Assembly: GCA_945865315.1 (NCBI GenBank) | Contig: CAMBDK010000022.1 | Location: forward strand, 1 to 32,134 | Direction: 5' to 3' | Origin: Chitinophaga pinensis | Lineage (GTDB): Bacteria; Bacteroidota; Bacteroidia; 2-12-FULL-35-15 | Length of the DNA: 32,134 nt | Shown here: positions 4,337 to 23,590 of the stretch, in pieces | How the letters are laid out: each line of letters begins with the position of its first letter | How positions within the stretch are numbered: position 1 is the first letter of the stretch | Program-made: the position numbers and the translations under genes | Notes under the pieces: generated by a model | Databases searched by the model: none | What the model saw: only the letters and a program-made list of their open reading frames with translations | Told to the model about the DNA's origin: nothing

Positions 4337-5143
4337 TTACTTCCATCGGTACTTAAAATTTTCGTATTTACCTTTTATAGCCATTGTAAGTTCTAATTGT
4401 GTTGCATTTTGGATATATTCGTCGCTTAGGTTTAAATATTTTATGAATGCCTCAAACTCATCTTCAGATAAATCAATTATTTCATGCTTGATATATAATC
4501 GAAATAAATCTTTCAAAATATCACGTTTTAAATCTTCATTTTCCCATTCAGCAACTTTTTGTTTTGATTTAGCAAATTTGCTAAATCTTTCATACAAATA
4601 TGTTATAGGGCTTTCTATAGCATATATTCCATTTACAGAAAATGATTTTTTTATTCCTATTTTATTAATATCAATTTCTATTTCATTTAATGAGCGAGAG
4701 GCAAAAACACTTATTTCCTTTAATGTAAAATACAATTTTTCGAGAGGAACAGTGATGTTAATTTTTTTTTGAAAGGTAGAATCTTTTAAGCATATATTTT
4801 TAATTTTGAAACCAAGTGCCGAAAGAATAATAGTATCCGTTAATTTTGCATTTATCGAAAAACAGCCATCAGCATCAGCAAATGTCCCTATGTTTGTTTG
4901 TTTATTAATTACCATTAATTGTGAAAGTGGTAATTTACTTTCCTTATCATAAGCTCGCCCTTTAATTTCACATACTAATGAGGAGTATGGAACATTTTTT
5001 TGTCCCAGAGCATTAAAATTGAACAAAGCCAGTAAAAATAAACAGATTAATATTTTACTGTGATAGTATAAATTTAAAGGTGGAATTATTGATTTGATCA
5101 TTGAATGATTTCGATAATATTTTTTAAATTGTTCGAACTTCAA
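4337..5143 (-). CDS. Exported CarboxypepD_reg-like domain protein
   Basis: This 268-residue protein has a hydrophobic segment (about residues 31-47, ending FNALGQ) that looks like a signal peptide. After it comes a beta-sandwich of about 75 residues. It starts EIKGRAYDKESKLPLS and continues through a GTFADADGCFSI turn to ILSALGFKI, the pattern of the carboxypeptidase regulatory-like domain (CarboxypepD_reg-like) used in many Bacteroidota envelope proteins. The C-terminal ~120 residues are charged and helical with no match I recognise. The first ATG leaves a long, basic N-terminus. The internal ATG at 5099-5101 (residue 15) is an alternative start. It probably acts in the periplasm or at the outer membrane; the specific role is unknown. 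Confidence 0.75.
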   Translation of the reverse strand: MKFEQFKKYYRNHSMIKSIIPPLNLYYHSKILICLFLLALFNFNALGQKNVPYSSLVCEIKGRAYDKESKLPLSQLMVINKQTNIGTFADADGCFSINAKLTDTIILSALGFKIKNICLKDSTFQKKINITVPLEKLYFTLKEISVFASRSLNEIEIDINKIGIKKSFSVNGIYAIESPITYLYERFSKFAKSKQKVAEWENEDLKRDILKDLFRLYIKHEIIDLSEDEFEAFIKYLNLSDEYIQNATQLELTMAIKGKYENFKYRWK

Positions 5144-5184: not shown

Positions 5185-5409
5185 GAAGTTTTCGAAATAA
5201 ATCTGCAAATTAAATGGTTCAACAACTATGTATTTTTCTTTTCTCTTGATACAAAAGAAACAAAAAAACAAGAACAAACGATTGCAACCCTACATCGCAT
5301 TTGTTAATTCCTCATGCGCGTTTCCAAAAGGATATTTTTTTGCAAAAAAATGGAATCATCTGTTTTTATTAATATATCTGTTTTATCGAAATTATTTTGA
5401 AAGCTTCAC
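5185..5409 (+). repeat. Repeat element copy 3 (MITE-like, diverged)
   Basis: This is a third, 225-bp copy in the same orientation. It starts GAAGTTTTCGAAATAA and ends TTATTTTGAAAGCTTCAC. It lacks about 11 bp (the TCCTCCCCACT stretch) present in copies 1 and 2, which breaks the reading frame those copies share. The internal stem has one mismatch (TTTCTTTTCT opposite ACAAAAGAAA) and the loop partner reads AACAAG. The TAAG borders of the other copies are absent. The right end overlaps the plsY stop codon at 5406-5408. Confidence 0.82.
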
Positions 5410-6077
5410 TGCTCCGCATCAGTTGGATTATTTGGTAAAACGGAATTTTTTATCTTATTAATCAGTTGCGCTTTAGATTCTTCCCTTCTAATTAAGCGTT
5501 CTATATTTTTTTGATGTGTTATTAAAACCATAATGGCAATTAATATTGAAAATACTATCAAGGAATTGTTTGTAATATTAAATACTAAAATAACAATTAA
5601 AGGAAAAGCAACAGCAGCAATCATTGAACTTAATGAAACATAACCTGAAATAAGTAATACCAATATAAATATACCAATAGAAATAAAGGCAGCATAAGGC
5701 AAAACGGCTAAAATAATACCTAGTAAAGTAGCAATTCCTTTACCCCCTCTGAAGGATGCGAATATTGGAAAAATATGCCCAACAAGGGAAGCAATACCTA
5801 ATACCAACTGCAAATTAATAAACTGGTTAGAATGAATGGTATAATTGCTTAATGAGGCTAAACTAACTGCCAAGAATCCTTTGAAGATATCTAAAAATAA
5901 AACAGGGATGCCTGCTTTTTTCCCAAGTACTCTGAAAACATTTGTAGCACCGGCATTTCCACTACCATATTCTCGAACATCAATTTTGTAAAAATATTTC
6001 CCTATCCATACCGCAGTAGGAATGGATCCAAGAATATAAGCTCCTAATAAGAAAAGAGTATTAATTGATGTCAGCAT
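5406..6077 (-). CDS. plsY: Acyl-phosphate:glycerol-3-phosphate acyltransferase PlsY
   Basis: PlsY transfers an acyl chain from acyl-phosphate to glycerol-3-phosphate at the inner membrane, the first committed step of phospholipid synthesis. The 223-residue protein has the family's short multi-helix layout. Its motifs are GSGNAGATNVFRVLG (38-52), a KG pair at 66-67, GHIFPIFASFRGGKG (100-114) and SGYVSLSS (144-151). It starts 2 bp after the stop of the 1488-residue gene, which implies joint transcription and probably translational coupling. The last residues (about NNPTDAEQ) run into the right end of repeat copy 3, which supplies the TGA stop. The C-terminus may therefore have been altered when the element inserted. 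Confidence 0.96.
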   Translation of the reverse strand: MLTSINTLFLLGAYILGSIPTAVWIGKYFYKIDVREYGSGNAGATNVFRVLGKKAGIPVLFLDIFKGFLAVSLASLSNYTIHSNQFINLQLVLGIASLVGHIFPIFASFRGGKGIATLLGIILAVLPYAAFISIGIFILVLLISGYVSLSSMIAAVAFPLIVILVFNITNNSLIVFSILIAIMVLITHQKNIERLIRREESKAQLINKIKNSVLPNNPTDAEQ

Positions 6078-6079
6078 TA

Positions 6080-9000
6080 TTATTCTTCAGTTTTATTTTT
6101 ACGTAAAAACATTGCTTTTTTACTAGGTGGGCAAATGTTGAAATTATAATCAGGAACACCCTTTTCTCCAGCTTTTTTACGTTTATCTGATTTTAATTCT
6201 TTTATAATAGTGTTAAATGCTTCGAGGGAAGAAACAGCTAACATGGTTCCTCTTGTATAGTTAAAGTAATACCAATTATTTTCACTTAATTCCAAATATA
6301 TATTTAAAATATCGCCACTACGTTTTTTAATTAGCTCAATGTGTCCATCCACATATTTATTCAGCTGTGTCTTATTGATATTTCCAATACCTATTTGTCC
6401 TACCGAGGTATAAGAGCGAGTATTCTTGTTCCAAATCATTTTTATATCGTTAAAGAAAAAAGTTTTCTTTAATTCATCTGGAAATTTTTTGTAGGACCCG
6501 TATAAATTTAATTGGGAAATAAGTTTATCAGCCTTATCTTTACCTAACATTTCGCGCATACCTTTTTCAAATACTACTCTAGTTAAATCTACGGCACCCG
6601 AATTAACAGAAGCAACAAAAGCTTCGGTCATTTTATCAATAGCGTTGTCATCAAAATAAAAATCAACAGCCATTATTAAGTCGAATAAAGTAGAATCTGT
6701 TTTTAAAATATGAGTAGCATTGCCGAATGATTCTATTTTTAATTGGCCGAAGTCGCCACCTAAATTAACTGTTCCTTCTCCATACATTTTACATTTCGCA
6801 ATATTTAAGCTTAAATAATTACCTGGCAATGAATTTTCAACCAATTTTTCTTTATTCGCTATGCGATATTCACGACTAGCTTTATCAAAAAATAGAAAAC
6901 CGTCGGCTGGCAAAATAGATAGATCACTTATTGATTTTTTTGGCGATAAGAAAGCCGAATATAAATGTGCAGAATCGTTAGCTATCATAAGCGATGCTGC
7001 AATAGGTTTGTAGGATACATCAAGAGGTTCTTTTGAAATAGGTATATAAATTAAATTTGGATTAATTTCAGATTCAAATTTAAACCATGTTTTTGGTATT
7101 GCTGCGCAATCGTGAATAATACGGGCAGCCCCATCAAATACTAAAAAATTGTTAGCTGCTTTGAGTTTTACTTTTCCTTTATATTCAAAATTTGGACTTA
7201 AATTAAATTTTGAAGTATCCCTAATTACAGTTTCTGCATAAGTTTGATAGGTAGTATCGATACCAATGTTACTGAAGAAAAATGTACGCTTTGCCATTAT
7301 TTCATCAATATAATCGTAAAAACCTGATCCTTTATAATTTTTACGAGCGTAAGCATTTACTGTACAGTTGTATAAATTATGATATTTAGTAATTGAATTG
7401 GCAATAATTTTGGCATTGTTAAAAGTTCGTATAACAGCACCTCTGTCAACAAATACATTTCCACTATCAGGGTATACACGGGCATCAGCCAAATTGATAT
7501 ACGTAACACCTTTGGCAGTAATAACATGTTTTTTTAAATCATATTTACCTGAGGAGGCAAAAAATCGCAAGGAATCTTGCTTTGGATGAACCGATATAAA
7601 TTCAGGCCCTTCCAAATCCAGATCGTTTTTAGTATCCGTTGTTTGCCCTTTGTCGGAGCCTATTTCAACAGTTCCATTATCCATAAACCATTTAAAACTT
7701 TCCATAAAACAAATATATTGATTTTGAGGAAATTGAACAATAGAACCTTTTCCATTAGATTTGAATTCACCAATTCGTTTATCAAAATTAACTAATGCAT
7801 TTACATTGAATGTTACAAAAGCTAATGTATCGGTACCTACTACTTTTACAGCAAAATTTGCTGTATCGGAATTAAATTTACTAGATTTAAAGAATATCAG
7901 TTTAGAGTCTAATCTGGCACTTAAAAAATCAACAGTGCCATCACCTGTAAGTACTTTTGGTGTAAGTTCTAACTTCCCATTAAATTTTGAATTTTGATTG
8001 TATGCTGTAAATCTTTGCTCCTTATTATTAATAATACTCATCAAATCTTTATTTGGCATCCAATGTATTTTAACATTTTCGCCATGTATTACAGGGAATT
8101 CCGGAGGTGTTTTTTGTTCCTTTATATCAAAATTTTGAGCTATTGCTTTTGTAGAGTCAGGAAAAAACAAGAAATCGTTTGATTTTGTAACGGATGTAAC
8201 ATAATTAAGCGTACCATCTCCTCTTAAGCCTTGGTGGCTAAGCTTTATTTTGTTATTATAGGTTCCTTTCCCTCCATAGATAGGGTAGCCTGCTGGAGGA
8301 GCTTCGGTGATAAATCCTAAAGAATAATCTTGTTGTAATGTTAAGGACTCCTTGAAGACAGGGAAAATATCTGATGTTACCATTTCGCCCTTAAATCTAA
8401 GTCCTTCATTGGAAAAATTATCTAAACTATCTATTGTAAAAGGATCAAGGTGAAAATAAAATTTATCTTTTTGATATTTACCATTTTGAATTGACCTTTT
8501 ACTATAATAGGTATATGAATCATTAAAGCTATTGAAAATAGGGTATTTAGGGAATGGTTTTATGCCAGATTTATTTTTAGGTTCATCAATTTCTAAGTTA
8601 CCATTTATTTTTTCCACTACAGTTTTTACTTTTACTAAAGGGTATTCACCATACGCATTAGGTAAAAAAGATTTTACAGATAAACGGAGAGAATCAACAT
8701 TTTTTAGTTCAATTATAAATTTGTTATAATCAAATGAAAATTCCTTACCAAAAAAATCGAAACGACCGGCATGCACAACTCCAGCAAAAGAAAAATTAAG
8801 ATTTTTCCTTAAAATAATTTTCTGCTCGGCAGGGTATATCGTTACGTTTTGGGAATCGCTCATGAAAATTTGTTTCACCCCAAAGATTGTCATTTCATTG
8901 TTTAATAAATTTATACTTGCATTGGTTAATCCGCGGGCAACCGATGGAACTTGAATCACATCATAATCAAGCTTTGCCGAACGAAAGGCAATAAAATCAA

Positions 9001-10546
9001 ATAGTTTTTCATTAACATGTACCTCATCTTCTTCTGGGTTATAATTGATAAGACCAAGAGTAGATAAAATAACTAAATTAGACCTCACATCGTTAATTGA
9101 ATATTTCAAATAGCTTGCATATTCTTGACCATAAAAATCTCTGCTGTTATTATTTTTTTTAATAAAATCACGCATTAATAATAAAGGATTAATAGGATCA
9201 ATACCTTTTAGGCGGTCGTATATATAGGAACGGAAATAGTTTGAAGATTCAAAGGATGCATCTTCCTGAGTATTGCCAACAAGCATATGTATATCAATTT
9301 TAGGATCATCAATTTTCCATGATAATTCTTCAAAATACATATCTACATCATGGTATGAATTAAGAAAAGGTAATTTTGATATACCTTTATTAGTCCGTAT
9401 CAGCGACAGCATGCGAGTAGCAATTATAAATTTCATATTAATGCTTGGATGGGTAATAGAATCCTTTTCGAAATAGAATTTTATATTGGCGCCTTCTGCC
9501 GATAGTTTTTCTTTATTAATACCAATTATTTTTGCACCTACCACTAAAAATTTTTTGCCTCCATATTTGAAAATTAATGTGGCATCTTCTTTTTTACTGC
9601 CAGAACCTAAAAATTTTGATCCACGCATACTAAAACCTCCATCATAGTCCACACCTTCAGTAACATTAATTATTTGCATCCTTTTATTGTAAGAATCAAA
9701 ACGTGGGTATGAAATATTACTTCCTCTTTCGGAAATAACTTTTTCAGTTAATTGACCTAATAATGGTTTTTTAAAATAATTGTTGTTGTAAAATACTACA
9801 GAATCAGCTGTGAAACCGCTAGTTTTAAGAACAATTCTATAGTTTTTCAATTCAGCCCATACCATATTTTCTTCTAAACCGGCTCGCTTCCAATTTACAG
9901 TTCCACCATTACCAGTGAAAACCCCTGTATATGGGTAATAAACACCTGATGTATTATAAACTATTCCACTATCATTTTGATTGTTGAAACAACGTAAATT
10001 TAATTTCGGGAAAATGACTATTGGAACGCTATCATATTCAAATTTGTAATTAAAGTTATTGGATGCAAATTCCACTACAGAGGATCTGTAAAAAGTATTG
10101 GAAGCGAATAAGTTTTCACTCATCTCTAAATATTCGGAATAATACTTCATCACTTTGCCATTCAATATTTTATTGATACACTCTTGCCATGTATTAAAGT
10201 TATCTTCACTTTGATTCGATTGAACAAAATTCATCACTGATGTGAGGTAACTTTTATATTCAGGTAAAATGCGTAATTTTTTCTTAATCATTAAATTACA
10301 AGCGTTGTATGTTGATTTTTTGAATTCCTCTTTGTATTTAGGTGAGTTCCATGCTAGTGTGAACTGTTCCATAAATTCTTTTACTTCCTTTTTAGACATA
10401 TTCGTCACCTCTAACATCGCTTTTATTTCTTCAAGAAACTTAATAGGATCCTCGGTATATTGTTTAATAGGATTCAATTGCCCAACAGATTTTAATGTGA
10501 AGGCAAAAAGCATAAAAAGTATTAAAATATATCTGAAATTATTCAT
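6080..10546 (-). CDS. Very large exported protein of unknown function (1488 aa)
   Basis: A signal peptide is clear: MNNFRYILILFMLFAFTLKS, then VGQ at 21-23. Residues 24-165 are mostly helical. From about 170 to 1330 the protein is rich in short beta-strands, Asn, Lys and aromatic residues. Two stretches resemble each other: about 760-810 with LRGDGT at 774-779, and about 854-901 with LTGDGT at 866-871. Both end in (A/T)xNFxxK. A segment near 1010-1080 (YINLADARVYPDSGNVFV and following) recalls the strand-turn pattern of OstA/LptA-like or other stacked-sheet proteins, but I cannot assign a family. I see no transmembrane barrel signature and no C-terminal sorting domain. It is tightly coupled to plsY, so an envelope role is plausible. 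I do not recognise the gene with certainty and give no function. Confidence 0.9.
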   Translation of the reverse strand: MNNFRYILILFMLFAFTLKSVGQLNPIKQYTEDPIKFLEEIKAMLEVTNMSKKEVKEFMEQFTLAWNSPKYKEEFKKSTYNACNLMIKKKLRILPEYKSYLTSVMNFVQSNQSEDNFNTWQECINKILNGKVMKYYSEYLEMSENLFASNTFYRSSVVEFASNNFNYKFEYDSVPIVIFPKLNLRCFNNQNDSGIVYNTSGVYYPYTGVFTGNGGTVNWKRAGLEENMVWAELKNYRIVLKTSGFTADSVVFYNNNYFKKPLLGQLTEKVISERGSNISYPRFDSYNKRMQIINVTEGVDYDGGFSMRGSKFLGSGSKKEDATLIFKYGGKKFLVVGAKIIGINKEKLSAEGANIKFYFEKDSITHPSINMKFIIATRMLSLIRTNKGISKLPFLNSYHDVDMYFEELSWKIDDPKIDIHMLVGNTQEDASFESSNYFRSYIYDRLKGIDPINPLLLMRDFIKKNNNSRDFYGQEYASYLKYSINDVRSNLVILSTLGLINYNPEEDEVHVNEKLFDFIAFRSAKLDYDVIQVPSVARGLTNASINLLNNEMTIFGVKQIFMSDSQNVTIYPAEQKIILRKNLNFSFAGVVHAGRFDFFGKEFSFDYNKFIIELKNVDSLRLSVKSFLPNAYGEYPLVKVKTVVEKINGNLEIDEPKNKSGIKPFPKYPIFNSFNDSYTYYSKRSIQNGKYQKDKFYFHLDPFTIDSLDNFSNEGLRFKGEMVTSDIFPVFKESLTLQQDYSLGFITEAPPAGYPIYGGKGTYNNKIKLSHQGLRGDGTLNYVTSVTKSNDFLFFPDSTKAIAQNFDIKEQKTPPEFPVIHGENVKIHWMPNKDLMSIINNKEQRFTAYNQNSKFNGKLELTPKVLTGDGTVDFLSARLDSKLIFFKSSKFNSDTANFAVKVVGTDTLAFVTFNVNALVNFDKRIGEFKSNGKGSIVQFPQNQYICFMESFKWFMDNGTVEIGSDKGQTTDTKNDLDLEGPEFISVHPKQDSLRFFASSGKYDLKKHVITAKGVTYINLADARVYPDSGNVFVDRGAVIRTFNNAKIIANSITKYHNLYNCTVNAYARKNYKGSGFYDYIDEIMAKRTFFFSNIGIDTTYQTYAETVIRDTSKFNLSPNFEYKGKVKLKAANNFLVFDGAARIIHDCAAIPKTWFKFESEINPNLIYIPISKEPLDVSYKPIAASLMIANDSAHLYSAFLSPKKSISDLSILPADGFLFFDKASREYRIANKEKLVENSLPGNYLSLNIAKCKMYGEGTVNLGGDFGQLKIESFGNATHILKTDSTLFDLIMAVDFYFDDNAIDKMTEAFVASVNSGAVDLTRVVFEKGMREMLGKDKADKLISQLNLYGSYKKFPDELKKTFFFNDIKMIWNKNTRSYTSVGQIGIGNINKTQLNKYVDGHIELIKKRSGDILNIYLELSENNWYYFNYTRGTMLAVSSLEAFNTIIKELKSDKRKKAGEKGVPDYNFNICPPSKKAMFLRKNKTEE

Positions 10547-10645: not shown

Positions 10646-11476
10646 TTATTTTTTAAAATGCAACATTGCCCACTCATCAATAATTAATTTTTCTTCCATT
10701 TTAAGACCCAAGTCCGCAGCACTTTTGTTAATTTCTATGATATCCGTTTCAAAAAATCCACTCAACACTAAGTTTCCATTTTGTTCAAGCGAATTATTAT
10801 AAACTTTCATATCGCTGAGTAGAACATTTTTGTTAATGTTTGCTAGTATTGTATTAAATGATTTACCATTTAATATTTTAGAATCGCCTTTATAAACAGC
10901 AACATTTTTAATGTTGTTTTTTTGTAAATTTTCTATGCTGTTTTCATAACACCAGTCGTCGATATCAATCGCTGTTATGGGATTAGCACCAAGCATCGAT
11001 GCTAATATAGCTAATACACCGGTACCGCATCCCATATCTAATAGTGATTTATTGTTTAGGTTTAATTTAAGTAATTTCTTAATCATTAACTGAGTTGTAT
11101 TGTGATGCCCAGTCCCAAAGGACATTTTAGGCTCAATAATTATGTCATAATCAATATTTTTTTTCTTCTCATGAAATGGTGCTCTTATGGAACATTTCCC
11201 ATCTACATCTATAGCTTGATAATTACTTTCCCATTCTTTTGCCCAATTTTGTTTTTCGATTATTTTTGAAATATAGCTAATTTTTAAAATATGCGAATAA
11301 TTTAAAAACAATTTTTTTACATTTATTTCTGAATAGGCATCTTCTTTTATGTATGCATAAAATCCAGTTTCACTTTCAACGAAGCTTTCAAATTCAATTT
11401 CTGATAATTCCGCAATTAATATATCGCTACCTAGTTCTTGGGGTTCAACATTAACAATTAGTTCAACGTGATTCAT
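10646..11476 (-). CDS. prmA: Ribosomal protein L11 methyltransferase
   Basis: PrmA methylates lysines and the N-terminus of ribosomal protein L11 using S-adenosylmethionine. The 276-residue protein has a small N-terminal substrate domain (about 1-90). It is followed by a Rossmann-type methyltransferase with EPKMSFGTGHH (115-125, family signature), DMGCGTG (147-153, SAM-binding loop), an acidic DIDDW (171-175) and LANINKNVLL (211-220, the motif IV region). Length fits the family. It lies 128 bp downstream of tpiA in the same direction. A TAGCTTTG box just after tpiA could give it its own promoter. Confidence 0.95.
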   Translation of the reverse strand: MNHVELIVNVEPQELGSDILIAELSEIEFESFVESETGFYAYIKEDAYSEINVKKLFLNYSHILKISYISKIIEKQNWAKEWESNYQAIDVDGKCSIRAPFHEKKKNIDYDIIIEPKMSFGTGHHNTTQLMIKKLLKLNLNNKSLLDMGCGTGVLAILASMLGANPITAIDIDDWCYENSIENLQKNNIKNVAVYKGDSKILNGKSFNTILANINKNVLLSDMKVYNNSLEQNGNLVLSGFFETDIIEINKSAADLGLKMEEKLIIDEWAMLHFKK

Positions 11477-11604: not shown

Positions 11605-12372
11605 TTATTTTTTAATAGAATTAACTATCGCAAGATATTCGCTTCCAATAAGCGATGAACCACCTATTAAACCTCCATCTACATCAATACAATCAAATAA
11701 TTCTTTTGCATTTTTTGTATTGCAGCTGCCACCATAAAGTATTGAAATAGCAGTAGAAATTTCTTTCCCATATTTTTTATTTATTTCGGATCTAATATAA
11801 TTATGCATGCCCTGGGCCTGATGAATAGTGGCTGTAACACCAGTACCAATTGCCCAAACAGGTTCGTAAGCCAATATTAGTTTGATGAAATCTTTTGATG
11901 GTAAATGGAAGAGAGCCTCTTTCAATTGAATTTTAATTGCTTCTAAATGCATGTTTGCATTTCGTTCTATTAAATTTTCACCTATACAAAAAATAGGTGT
12001 TAAGTTGTTTGCCAGAGCGATATTTACCTTTTGAGCTAGTAAATTATTATTTTCTCCAGAATATAAGCGGCGTTCGGAATGTCCTATAATAACATACTTT
12101 GCACCTGTAGATTCTATCATCGCCGCTGATATTTCTCCTGTATATGCACCTTTTGGATTATGATGACAATTTTGAGCGGCTACTTCAAATCCATTTAAAT
12201 GTTCTAATTTATTGGCTATAGCAGCCAAATGTATGTATGGGGTAGCAATAATTTTTAACACGTCATCGGTGGAGTGGCTTAATGATTCTTTGATAATTTC
12301 ATCAACGAATTCAATTCCTTCGTTATATGTTTTGTTCATTTTCCAATTTCCGACAACTATTTTTTTTCTCAT
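11605..12372 (-). CDS. tpiA: Triosephosphate isomerase
   Basis: TpiA interconverts dihydroxyacetone phosphate and glyceraldehyde 3-phosphate in cytosolic glycolysis and gluconeogenesis. The 255-residue protein shows every key site. These are GNWKMN with catalytic Lys11, GHSERR with His98, the AYEPVWAIGTG strand and loop with catalytic Glu170, and the phosphate-binding turns ILYGGS (211-216) and GGLIGGSSL (233-241). Length is normal. It sits 50 bp downstream of the permease gene and upstream of prmA. I recall a tpiA, MauE-like protein and DUF1599 neighbourhood in other Bacteroidota, so this order appears ancestral apart from the inserted permease. Confidence 0.97.
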   Translation of the reverse strand: MRKKIVVGNWKMNKTYNEGIEFVDEIIKESLSHSTDDVLKIIATPYIHLAAIANKLEHLNGFEVAAQNCHHNPKGAYTGEISAAMIESTGAKYVIIGHSERRLYSGENNNLLAQKVNIALANNLTPIFCIGENLIERNANMHLEAIKIQLKEALFHLPSKDFIKLILAYEPVWAIGTGVTATIHQAQGMHNYIRSEINKKYGKEISTAISILYGGSCNTKNAKELFDCIDVDGGLIGGSSLIGSEYLAIVNSIKK

Positions 12373-12422: not shown

Positions 12423-13502
12423 TTATACTAACCTTATGCGTGGATCTAAAATACCATAAATGATATCAACTGTAATATTAATAATAACAAAAATAAGAGC
12501 AAATACTAGCGTTGCACCCATAACAACAGGCAAATCATTTTTGTTTAGCGCATCTACTACTTCAAATCCAATACCTTTCCAATTAAAAACAATTTCAACA
12601 AATACTGCTCCTGCTATTAGACCAGCAAACCAACCTGAAATTGCAGTAATTACTGGGTTAAGGGCGTTTTTTAAGGCATGTTTTAAAATCACATTGTAAA
12701 AAGATACTCCTTTAGCTGTTGCAGTTCTTATGTAATCTTGGGAAAGTACTTCCAATAAAGTACTGCGAGTTAATTGAATGATTACTGCCAGGGGCCTTAA
12801 GCCAAGTGTAATGGTTGGTAATATTAAATTTTTTAAGGTAAGGTGTTCTTCTCCAAAATCGTTTGTTGTATATAAGGATCCTACGTTATTTAGGCCAGTA
12901 TAATCACGTAATATAAAACCAAAAAACCAAGCAATTATTAGTCCAATAAAAAAGGATGGCAATGCCATGCCTATTATAGCAAAAACCAGGGCTGACTTGT
13001 CAAACCATGAGTTTTTTTTCAATGCGGAATAGATGCCTAATAAAATCCCGAAAAATGAAGCAAAAAGTATGGATGAAAATGCTAATACAGCTGTTTCTGG
13101 GAGTGTCTCAATGATAATATCCGATACTTTTCGTTTTGAAATATACGACCTTCTTAAATAGGGGTATTTAAGTATTATTATTTTGCTGCTTGAAACAGAA
13201 ATTATTTTTTTAAAGGAGGTATATTTATTGGGATTTAAATATAAATAATGCTCTATATTAGTTGGGTCGTTTACAGAGATGGGGGATAAATCATTCAAAT
13301 ACATAAGAAATTGTATTGTCATTGTTTTATCGCGGCCTAAATCTTTATTGATGATATCAATAGAAGCTTTATCAGCACGCTGTCCAAGCATCATACGGGC
13401 AGGATCTCCAGGCAATACGTTGAATAGCAGAAATACTACAGTAATAACACCAAGTAATACAAGAAAACCGTAAAATAAGCGTTTTAATATAAATTTTATC
13501 AC
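12423..13502 (-). CDS. OppB/DppB-type ABC transporter permease
   Basis: This 359-residue inner-membrane protein resembles the first permease of dipeptide/oligopeptide/nickel ABC importers. The N-terminus (KRLFYGFLVLLGVITVVFLLFNVLPGDPAR, split between the first helix and the conserved LPGDPAR at 30-36) is typical. Five more helices follow. The cytoplasmic EAA-like loop DYIRTATAKGV...HALKNALNPV spans about 256-283, and the protein ends with DPRIRLV, also characteristic. An insertion of about 60 residues between helix 1 and helix 2 (about 65-125) forms the periplasmic part. Importers of this class need an OppC-like second permease, two ATPases and a binding protein. None is encoded next to it, so the partners must be elsewhere. 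Confidence 0.9.
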   Translation of the reverse strand: MIKFILKRLFYGFLVLLGVITVVFLLFNVLPGDPARMMLGQRADKASIDIINKDLGRDKTMTIQFLMYLNDLSPISVNDPTNIEHYLYLNPNKYTSFKKIISVSSSKIIILKYPYLRRSYISKRKVSDIIIETLPETAVLAFSSILFASFFGILLGIYSALKKNSWFDKSALVFAIIGMALPSFFIGLIIAWFFGFILRDYTGLNNVGSLYTTNDFGEEHLTLKNLILPTITLGLRPLAVIIQLTRSTLLEVLSQDYIRTATAKGVSFYNVILKHALKNALNPVITAISGWFAGLIAGAVFVEIVFNWKGIGFEVVDALNKNDLPVVMGATLVFALIFVIINITVDIIYGILDPRIRLV

Positions 13503-13651
13503 AATTCTTTGGCTAAATTTATTTTATAGAAATTTCGAAAAAAAGTGATACTAATAACATTTAATAAATTATAATAATGGGCAATTTATTTTTTTTACAT
13601 GCATCGTAATGTTAAGAGCTATAAAATAAAAAAATTGCTTTTAAAATGTAG

Positions 13652-14764
13652 CTATTTTTTAAAATACTTCTCTTTTAAATCACTATATGACGGAAATGAA
13701 TTATAATGCCACATGCCTATTACTGTGCCTGCTTTTAAAAGCATTAATCCCGGATTTGATCTTATCATTGTTTTTAAAACTGTCCCATCTGTATTATAAA
13801 AATCAATATTAGTTTTGGTCTCCAACTTAAATTTTTCAATAGTTTCTTTTGTAGAGGCGGTAAGTGTAATAAATGCAATACTATCTTGTTTACACAAAGT
13901 GGAGAAATCATTTATTTTACCAAAAATATCTTGCTCTGTTTTTTGTAGATCGTGACAAATTAATAAAAAATTATAATTTGGATTTCCAATAATATCTTCT
14001 GTATAATCAGAGCCTTCAAGGTTTGAAATACTGAAATCTTTAATTTTAGGTTCTACTCCTTTTTTTGTAACTTCAGTTCTGTTGCTTACATAATCATACT
14101 GCTGGTCCCAGTTAATAGGCCATTTGTCAACTTCTGTAGTTTCTCCTGTTTTTTTATCTTTTAATAAATAATAAAATTTTATCTCATCGGGTATACCTTT
14201 GGTTTGCTCCGGAATATTTTTCCCAATTGCATATGGGCGAAAATCTATTATTGGCAAATAACTATAGGTGTATATTGGAAAAGCTGCTGAGGCAATAGTT
14301 ATCATTACTAAAAGTGCGTTTTCAAATTTATTCCCAAAAATTGGCTTAATGTATTGTTTACCAATAAATAATAATATTATAAAGAATAATAATATTAAAT
14401 CTTTCGTAAATGATTGCCATGGGGTTAATGGTATAGCATCACCAAAACATCCGCAGCTTAATACTTTTTGATAATATGCCGAGTAAAAAGTTAAAAAGGT
14501 GAAAAATACAATCATTGCCAACAGCAACCATAAGGTTAATTTTATTCTTGCTCCCAACAATAAGGTGAAACCTAAAATGATTTCAAAAACACAAATAAAA
14601 ATTGCTAACGGCAGTGCAATTGGAATTAAAAAGTGAGTGTCGAAAACTTCAAAATATTCAACTAGTTTATAGGCAAAACCAACAGCATCATTAGCTTTTA
14701 TGAAACCTGAAAAAATAAATAATAGCCCTGTTAAAATACGAGTAATGTTTGTTATTGTTTTCAT
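13652..14764 (-). CDS. MauE/DoxX-like membrane protein with thioredoxin-like C-terminus (BT_3928 type)
   Basis: The 370-residue protein has two parts. Residues 1-165 form a four-helix membrane unit of the MauE/DoxX type, starting with ITRILTGLLFIFSGFIKANDAVGFAYK and carrying the conserved CGCFGD motif at 104-109. Residues ~245-370 look like a thioredoxin-fold domain: KDFSISNLEG, a strand YNFLLICHDL, and RSNPGLMLLKAGTVIGMWH, which matches the cis-Pro region. The usual CxxC is missing at the expected place, so a disulfide function would have to use the membrane-domain cysteines. MauE relatives supply disulfides or redox equivalents to periplasmic proteins; here the partner is unknown. It lies between the DUF1599 gene and the permease, all co-directional. 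Confidence 0.82.
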   Translation of the reverse strand: MKTITNITRILTGLLFIFSGFIKANDAVGFAYKLVEYFEVFDTHFLIPIALPLAIFICVFEIILGFTLLLGARIKLTLWLLLAMIVFFTFLTFYSAYYQKVLSCGCFGDAIPLTPWQSFTKDLILLFFIILLFIGKQYIKPIFGNKFENALLVMITIASAAFPIYTYSYLPIIDFRPYAIGKNIPEQTKGIPDEIKFYYLLKDKKTGETTEVDKWPINWDQQYDYVSNRTEVTKKGVEPKIKDFSISNLEGSDYTEDIIGNPNYNFLLICHDLQKTEQDIFGKINDFSTLCKQDSIAFITLTASTKETIEKFKLETKTNIDFYNTDGTVLKTMIRSNPGLMLLKAGTVIGMWHYNSFPSYSDLKEKYFKK

Positions 14765-14884
14765 TTTTAGTTTTTAATTTAAAATTTTAATTTCAGAATT
14801 GTGTTATAAATAACAGCAACTATTTTTAGTTTTTATTTTTATTATTAAGCTAGTAAATAAAATATATTAAAATAAGTTTATAAA

Positions 14885-15421
14885 TTATTCATTTAACTTG
14901 ATAAGAGCAAAAATAGCGTAATTAATCATGTCGTGAAAATTAGCGTCTACACCTTCTGATATAATTGTTTCACCTTTATTATCTTCTATTTGCTTAATGC
15001 GTAATAGTTTCATTAAAATTAAATCTGTTAATGAACTTATCCTCATATCTCGCCAGGCCTCCCCATAATCATGGTTTTTATTCTCCATCAAATTTCTTGC
15101 CTCATTTGCATGTTGATCGTATAATTTACTAACCTCATCGGCAGGTAAATCCATACGCATATCGTTTTTTAATTTTAATTGAATTAACCCTATTATTGAA
15201 TAATTAATAATACCAATATATTCAGACTGAATATTCTCACTTATTTTTTGAGTACCTTTGTCTTCTATATTTCTAATACGTTGTGCTTTAATAAATATTT
15301 GATCCGTAATAGAGCTTGTTCTTAATATACGCCAAGCTGTACCATAATCTTTCATTTTTTTAATGAAAATATTTTTACTGGATGTAATAGCTGTTTCGTA
15401 TTGAGTTTCAGTTTTATTCAT
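14885..15421 (-). CDS. DUF1599 (nucleotide-modification-associated) tandem-domain protein
   Basis: This 178-residue protein consists of two copies of the same ~58-residue unit. Residues 25-82 contain DYGTAWRILRTSSITD and RIRNIED; residues 118-176 contain DYGEAWRDMRISSLTD and RIKQIED. Each unit ends in a helix of the INY(S/A)I type followed by (G/A)LI(Q/K)L. This is the pattern of DUF1599, which I recall is also named nucleotide modification associated domain 1. No enzymatic role is established to my knowledge. It is the first gene of the minus-strand run and is divergent from folP across 153 bp, a neighbourhood I recall in other Bacteroidota. Confidence 0.88.
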   Translation of the reverse strand: MNKTETQYETAITSSKNIFIKKMKDYGTAWRILRTSSITDQIFIKAQRIRNIEDKGTQKISENIQSEYIGIINYSIIGLIQLKLKNDMRMDLPADEVSKLYDQHANEARNLMENKNHDYGEAWRDMRISSLTDLILMKLLRIKQIEDNKGETIISEGVDANFHDMINYAIFALIKLNE

Positions 15422-22474: not shown

Positions 22475-22482
22475 CAAATTTA
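22475..22482 (-). promoter_or_regulatory. Possible -7 box for the M16 peptidase gene
   Basis: The minus strand reads TAAATTTG, matching TAnnTTTG, and overlaps the gldB stop codon. A start site would fall in or next to the G8 run, about 140 bases upstream of the M16 ATG. No -33 element is visible. Confidence 0.22.
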
Positions 22483-23517
22483 TTTCCTTGGTTTATATTT
22501 TGCTTCCCTTAATATTTTTTGTGCATCAGCTTCTTTCATTAATTCATCCAAGGATAATTCGGGCTTGTTTTTCATATATTGTCTGATGATTTGCCAGCCT
22601 ATCCAATACCCTATGCGGGGAGGTGCATCCTTACTAAATGCACTAGTAAATGGGCCTTCACAGGTGTATTTTATTATCTCCGATTGGTTAGTAGTATATA
22701 TTAATTTTTGGTTAGCAAAATAACTCCATATATTAAATTCATTTTGTAAACAATAATTAAGTTGCTGCTCTGTATATTTTATCTTCACTGTGTCAGGAAC
22801 ATTAGGAAGTAATGCATCACACAGGTACATTATTTTACCCATATAGGTTATTTCACTTAAAAAATCAGTTTTGTCCATTTTATATGGAAATTCAGTAATC
22901 ATCCATGCTTGTGCAGCATCGGGTATAATATTTTCCTTATTCATAAACATTGTTTTATATTGCGGAAAGGCTAACATTTTATAAAACTTATTATCTCTTC
23001 CTAAATACATTTCCAGTCCTATAGCGAGTGTGTTATCTAGTAGCACCACCGAGTAATTAAAGCCCGACATCATGGTAATTATTTGGGGTGTTTTTTTTGT
23101 TTTAAAATAATAGGAATAATGTTTGAATAAGTCTGTAAATTGATTATTTAGTATTGTAGTATTTGGATACTCCTTTTGGCAATCATTATAGGCTTCATGC
23201 ATGTCCGGATCATTAATAAATTTATTAATCTGAATCATATTAGATGAATCATGTTCAGCACCATGGTTTATTATCCTATTGATAAATATGTTATAAAAAT
23301 TACCATATTTACTTTGCAATTCTATAAACGACTTATTTAATCCATTACTTAGTGTGTCATTACTATTATTATTTATTTTAAATAAATCCTGATCTAACCT
23401 ATTGATTTCAACTTCTGGAATAATCACCTTCGTAACATCAATATCTAAATGATTGCTGCCACAGGATGTAAAAAATAATATTAAAAATGATGAAAGATAG
23501 GCGATGTTAATTTTCAT
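22480..23517 (-). CDS. gldB: GldB-type gliding-motility lipoprotein
   Basis: GldB is an inner-membrane or periplasmic lipoprotein needed for gliding motility in flavobacteria, and homologues occur widely in Bacteroidota. From the chosen start the protein has 345 residues. It begins with a lipoprotein signal (MKINIAYLSSFLILFFTSCG, lipobox Cys19). An upstream in-frame ATG at 23577 would add 20 residues rich in Tyr and Phe before the signal and is rejected. The body shows GldB features such as NRLDQDLFKI (mature N-terminus), GAEHDS, YFK and PRIGYWIGWQIIRQYM near the C-terminus. No other gld gene is in the window. It is divergent from a PorT-like gene. Confidence 0.88.
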   Translation of the reverse strand: MKINIAYLSSFLILFFTSCGSNHLDIDVTKVIIPEVEINRLDQDLFKINNNSNDTLSNGLNKSFIELQSKYGNFYNIFINRIINHGAEHDSSNMIQINKFINDPDMHEAYNDCQKEYPNTTILNNQFTDLFKHYSYYFKTKKTPQIITMMSGFNYSVVLLDNTLAIGLEMYLGRDNKFYKMLAFPQYKTMFMNKENIIPDAAQAWMITEFPYKMDKTDFLSEITYMGKIMYLCDALLPNVPDTVKIKYTEQQLNYCLQNEFNIWSYFANQKLIYTTNQSEIIKYTCEGPFTSAFSKDAPPRIGYWIGWQIIRQYMKNKPELSLDELMKEADAQKILREAKYKPRK

Positions 23518-23590
23518 GTAAAAATTAAAATGATAAAAAATATACTTAATATTGTAATCAAAATAAACAATATCCAAATTTTTGAAAAAT

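Follow-up and report, generated by a model that had tools for sequence, protein, structure and literature searches.

The longest gene in the window (the whole 32,134-nucleotide stretch of DNA that was analysed) encodes a 1488-residue protein that is predicted to be exported and to contain two regions with an LptA-like beta-jellyroll fold. We give a probability of roughly one half to the reading that this protein shields a hydrophobic substrate in the periplasm or gives it a path, in the manner of LptA, and acts beside the Lpt and TamB systems of the cell.

The gene and its product

The open reading frame (ORF) starts with ATG and is located on the minus strand. An earlier note on this DNA had called it the largest gene in the window, with a stop 2 bp before the start of plsY. 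Both points hold: the next longest ORF encodes 954 aa, and plsY starts at 6077. The identity of plsY is supported by Pfam (E 1.2e-55) and by TIGR00023, which scored above its cut-off. The features of the region are as follows.

6080..10546, minus strand: gene of the 1488-aa exported protein with predicted LptA-like fold (ORF call and relatives)
10481..10546, minus strand: signal peptide, residues 1-22, predicted cleavage before Q23 (Q-rule)
10100..10447, minus strand: six-helix N-terminal domain, residues 34-149 (AlphaFold2 model)
9239..9661, minus strand: LptA/LptH-like beta stretch 1, residues ~296-436 (LptH 4uu4, Z 9.6)
8966..9241, minus strand: inserted winged-helix domain, residues ~436-527 (Rio2 Z 8.5, MarR/OhrR Z ~7)
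6650..8965, minus strand: long strand-rich region, residues 528-1299, 58 strands (AlphaFold2 models)
7325..8314, minus strand: LptA/LptC/LptD-like stretch 2, residues ~745-1074 (Z up to 11.6)
8120..8287, minus strand: repeat A, residues 754-809, GLRGDGT (profile self-comparison)
7844..8011, minus strand: repeat B, residues 846-901, LTGDGT (profile self-comparison)
6083..6649, minus strand: C-terminal region, residues 1300-1488, with 3 helices, 6 long strands and short helices (model)
5406..6077, minus strand: plsY, 2 bp downstream (Pfam and NCBIfam)
10646..11476, minus strand: prmA, 99 bp upstream, the most constant neighbour (domain match and neighbourhood comparison)
11605..12372, minus strand: tpiA (triosephosphate isomerase), member of the conserved cluster (domain match and neighbourhood comparison)

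Because full-length relatives with 22-80% identity to the protein are found in many families, the gene is judged to be more than a chance ORF. These full-length members range from 1461 to 1857 aa. No match to the 1488-aa protein was found in sequence searches of Pfam, NCBIfam or PDB, and 31 family members gave no convincing Pfam match. Single-sequence and profile searches of the three collections returned only noise, apart from a weak hint of a winged helix. By sequence comparison, the protein belongs to an unnamed, unannotated and widely conserved family.

The N-terminus carries a hydrophobic stretch ending in ...SVG-Q. A hydrophobic N-terminal stretch is present in 79/81 family members, and 67/81 members have the Q-rule motif, a signal-peptidase-I cleavage motif of Bacteroidetes with glutamine at +1 (PMC5837995). 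No lipobox was found among the 81 members. These features point to a cleavable signal-peptidase-I signal, in agreement with the signal peptide that had been noticed earlier. The protein would then reach the periplasm by secretion and lose its signal. A T9SS sorting domain was not found at the C-terminus, with no NCBIfam family matching the protein.

Spread and descent of the family

Relatives were detected in 56/59 nearby genomes, representing 22/24 genera, and in most of the families sampled near the source genome. The gene is single copy in the nearby genomes, except where it is broken into pieces or over contigs, and the source genome has one copy. A first, deep family alignment proved too variable for a collection scan, and a closer one took its place. 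In an even draw across the phylum, the family was found in 14/392 genomes by sequence and in 15/395 by profile; one weak partial match aside, all of these belong to the same class. The named carriers include the cultured Salibacter halophilus and Acidiluteibacter ferrifornacis, and many further carriers are records labelled Flavobacteriales or uncultivated Bacteroidia. Complete genomes of the same class showed no gene of the family, and a search of plasmids gave no match.

The distances between family members track those between PrmA proteins (r 0.84 in 27 genomes; the best of 500 permutations reached 0.39), a result in favour of vertical descent. On the PrmA tree, the gene-less genomes are scattered, even inside carrier families, and 7 changes are required versus 11.1 in shuffles, a count that is approximate owing to the many weak forks of the tree. 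Since the gene-less genomes fall at several places, the gene has probably been lost repeatedly. Several families have no relatives of the protein, so it is not universally needed.

Predicted structure and repeats

AlphaFold2 was run on two pieces that overlap, one covering residues 20-960 (alignment of 79 sequences) and the other residues 640-1488 (78 sequences). The mean pLDDT was 90.4 and 89.4 and the pTM 0.70 and 0.64, respectively, and the two models agree in 98.8% of the secondary structure of their overlap. In the predicted order, the signal is followed by six helices (34-149), a first set of strands, the winged helix (436-527) and further strands up to ~1300, after which comes a mixed C-terminus of three helices, six long strands and short helices. 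Residues 150 to 1300 contain about 84 strands, and strands make up 51% of residues 170-1300. The models thus bear out a helical N-terminus followed by more than 1000 strand-rich residues, as the sequence alone had suggested. If all ~84 strands were stacked as two LptA-style sheets, an assumption that makes the figure simple arithmetic (42 x 4.8 A), the length would be very roughly 200 A. This is about the width of the periplasm, and the protein might span it. A count of hydrophobicity on the strand faces showed somewhat amphipathic strands, as expected of any sheet, and was given no weight.

The winged-helix domain (window 8966-9241, minus strand) interrupts the beta region of this exported protein. 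Its structural matches are the Rio2 winged helix (Z 8.5) and the MarR/OhrR regulators (Z ~7), with which the weak sequence hint agrees. The winged helix is usually a DNA-binding or protein-docking fold; here it would more probably dock a partner than bind DNA.

Two repeats of about 50 residues with an L(R/T)GDGT core had been pointed out before, and profile self-comparison recovered them: residues 846-901 align with 754-809 (probability 85.6, E 5.6e-6), and more strongly as cut units (probability 95.1, E 3e-8). The two LxGDGT segments are homologous by this measure. Residues 540-582 also resemble 997-1036 (E 0.0012 in self-comparison, 1e-5 as cut units). Asp-Ser/Thr is present in at least 70% of members at 13 columns. 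The last eight of them (618-1284) are spaced by 88-106 residues, a regularity absent from 50,000 uniform random placements in a test devised after the spacing had been noticed. This spacing suggests a putative repeated unit of ~95 residues. Units centred on the Asp-Ser columns aligned in register in 9/54 pairs versus ~5 expected, so the evidence for the ~95-residue unit is the spacing and one strong pair, not general similarity between units.

Regional likeness to Lpt proteins

When the models were compared with known structures by VIA-align, LptC, LptD, LptA and LptH were at the top for both models (Z ~8-11.6), above most other matches and mostly with rmsd 2-5 A over ~100-160 residues. These matches map to residues ~296-436 and ~745-1074, and the LptC-chain matches cover 115-126 of ~175 residues. 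Foldseek gave LptC 6mit with a probability of 1.00 and a TM-score of 0.64, and LptA 2r1a with a probability of 0.99 and a TM-score of 0.61 (both target-normalised). Full-length Foldseek alignments superpose poorly (rmsd ~20-50 A). Therefore, the likeness is claimed only regionally, and together with the pTM of 0.64-0.70 the poor superposition leaves the overall shape uncertain. The models support a regional LptA-like beta-jellyroll fold, and the likeness to OstA/LptA stacked strands that the earlier note saw in one stretch is predicted in these two regions. Its doubt, a structure lacking an elongated beta fold, is answered by a strand-rich model.

Other elongated beta proteins were also listed, namely OspA variants, ApoB and the CPAP TCP10 domain. 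They would fit a purely structural role as a stalk or matrix, not in transport, in which case the likeness to LptA reflects a common mode of strand stacking. Yet these matches mostly have lower Z than those of the LptA family, which span most of LptA or LptC and recur in two distinct parts of the 1488-aa chain, and we regard such a stalk as quite unlikely.

Comparison with known transport systems

The source genome has its own OstA/LptA-like protein (a 565 aa ORF), LptC, LptD and TamB on other contigs, so the 1488-aa protein is an additional one. Membership in the OstA/LptA family by sequence was tested and rejected: a profile comparison with Bacteroidota OstA scored no better than shuffled columns, no OstA match in Pfam was found among 31 family members, and an OstA_2 search of the genome found another gene only. 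Nor was there a signal above shuffles in profile comparisons with LptA and LptC of E. coli or with the LptD and TamB encoded in this genome. TamB/AsmA membership by sequence was likewise rejected, with no Pfam match and with a TamB profile that found only contig C26 of the genome. The evidence thus supports a fold likeness to Lpt proteins but not membership in the OstA, LptD or TamB families.

The protein resembles LptA, LptC and the periplasmic domain of LptD in predicted fold (~296-436 and ~745-1074; Z ~8-12) and in export. In contrast to E. coli LptA (185 aa), it is ~8 times longer and has additional winged-helix and helical domains, and its family lacks sequence kinship with the Lpt proteins, for which the genome keeps separate OstA, LptC and LptD genes. 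The protein might also be an additional branch of the lipopolysaccharide (Lpt) system, for instance a long bridge from LptC to LptD or a second route for a surface glycolipid; this would agree with the closest folds, which are LptC, LptA, LptH and the periplasmic part of LptD. We consider it improbable, because the canonical proteins are encoded in the same genome, no sequence similarity to OstA or LptD was detected, and absence of the family from complete genomes of the class means that it is not a core Lpt part.

With TamB/AsmA-like proteins, the protein shares its size (the TamB ORF of the genome is ~1500 aa) and a long strand-rich body. It probably differs in having a cleavable signal, predicted from the Q-rule motif, where AsmA-like proteins have an inner-membrane anchor. 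It shows no match to the TamB domain, and the genome's TamB is separate. TamB-type chains were absent from the structural matches listed, which does not exclude a likeness. A bridge-like action has been proposed for AsmA-like/TamB proteins (PMC12045153). With the eukaryotic bridge-like lipid transfer proteins of the VPS13 type, it shares in principle only the idea of a long repeated beta-groove; no match to Chorein_N or related Pfam families was found, and the putative repeat spacing is ~95 residues.

The neighbourhood of plsY and prmA

plsY is directly downstream in 34/71 named loci and in 21/40 loci of a second, partly overlapping genome set, across many families. prmA is the commoner neighbour, directly upstream in 53/69 and 27/40 loci of the same two sets. 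The conserved order is DUF1599-MauE-permease-tpiA-prmA-gene-plsY-comEC. In two gene-less genomes prmA directly precedes plsY with ~100 and ~70 bp between them, and these natural empty sites (L240:6247-7808 and L241:6190-7706) show the pair with no intervening gene. The linkage to plsY, judged by gene order, is old and real. As it belongs to a housekeeping cluster, it is weak evidence for a joint role. The linkage seen earlier extends beyond one species, but the step from it to a shared envelope or lipid role is not supported, given the older and wider cluster, the commoner prmA and the empty sites. Promoter-like sites in the region were no commoner than in shuffled sequence, so operon structure is read from spacing only.

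The ABC-permease, MauE-domain and DUF1599 genes (window 12423-15421, minus strand) are linked to tpiA/prmA across many families, and by this comparison form an old conserved cluster with them. Just downstream of plsY is a gene for a 268-aa protein (window 4337-5143, minus strand), which matches NCBIfam BamP over nearly its full length (E 5.8e-13, 48.8 bits versus a cut-off of 230). Much of this match may come from a shared CarboxypepD_reg-like domain. BamP homologues are described as detectable only in Flavobacteriaceae (PMC12611786), and the 268-aa protein may represent a diverged BamP-like form from a lineage outside that family. The BamP-like gene beside plsY occurs almost only within the genus of the window. 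A gene for the gliding-motility lipoprotein GldB lies ~12 kb away (window 22480-23577, minus strand).

The protein may instead be a large periplasmic scaffold or chaperone, for example for outer-membrane proteins or surface lipoproteins, in which LptA-like sheets hold proteins and not lipids. A part in helping outer-membrane proteins to assemble is also discussed for the TamB-type beta-taco proteins, and Flavobacterium TamL was judged an unlikely lipid mover (PMC12045153); the BamP-like gene, and a winged helix and helical ends that look like docking parts, would agree with this. On the other hand, no physical or genetic partner is known, the BamP-like neighbour is nearly confined to one genus, and the best structural matches are lipopolysaccharide-transport proteins rather than chaperones. 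By our estimate, a scaffold or chaperone is rather unlikely.

A candidate carrier beside Lpt and TamB

Returning to the periplasmic shield or path, the mature chain would fold into a long series of LptA-like beta-sheets, in part made up of repeats that have diverged, between two helical ends. A hydrophobic substrate would be shielded, perhaps by a hydrophobic groove, on part or all of the route from the inner to the outer membrane, and this route would run beside those of Lpt and TamB in the same cell. A lipid is the leading candidate for the cargo, and phospholipid is a guess. A bolder version is a new family of single-chain, periplasm-spanning lipid conduits, distinct in sequence from Lpt and AsmA, adjacent to plsY and docked through the winged helix, that would bring phospholipids or other lipids of Bacteroidota to the outer membrane; we hold this version to be doubtful.

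To our knowledge, how phospholipids and other Bacteroidota outer-membrane lipids transit the periplasm is not settled. The modelled fold makes the 1488-aa protein a good candidate for a new carrier of lipids between the membranes, and its conserved, single-copy and unannotated family of 1461-1857 residues makes this candidate concrete. Should the protein turn out not to carry lipids, its family would still be a large one of the envelope, unannotated so far and with a winged-helix domain that is exported.
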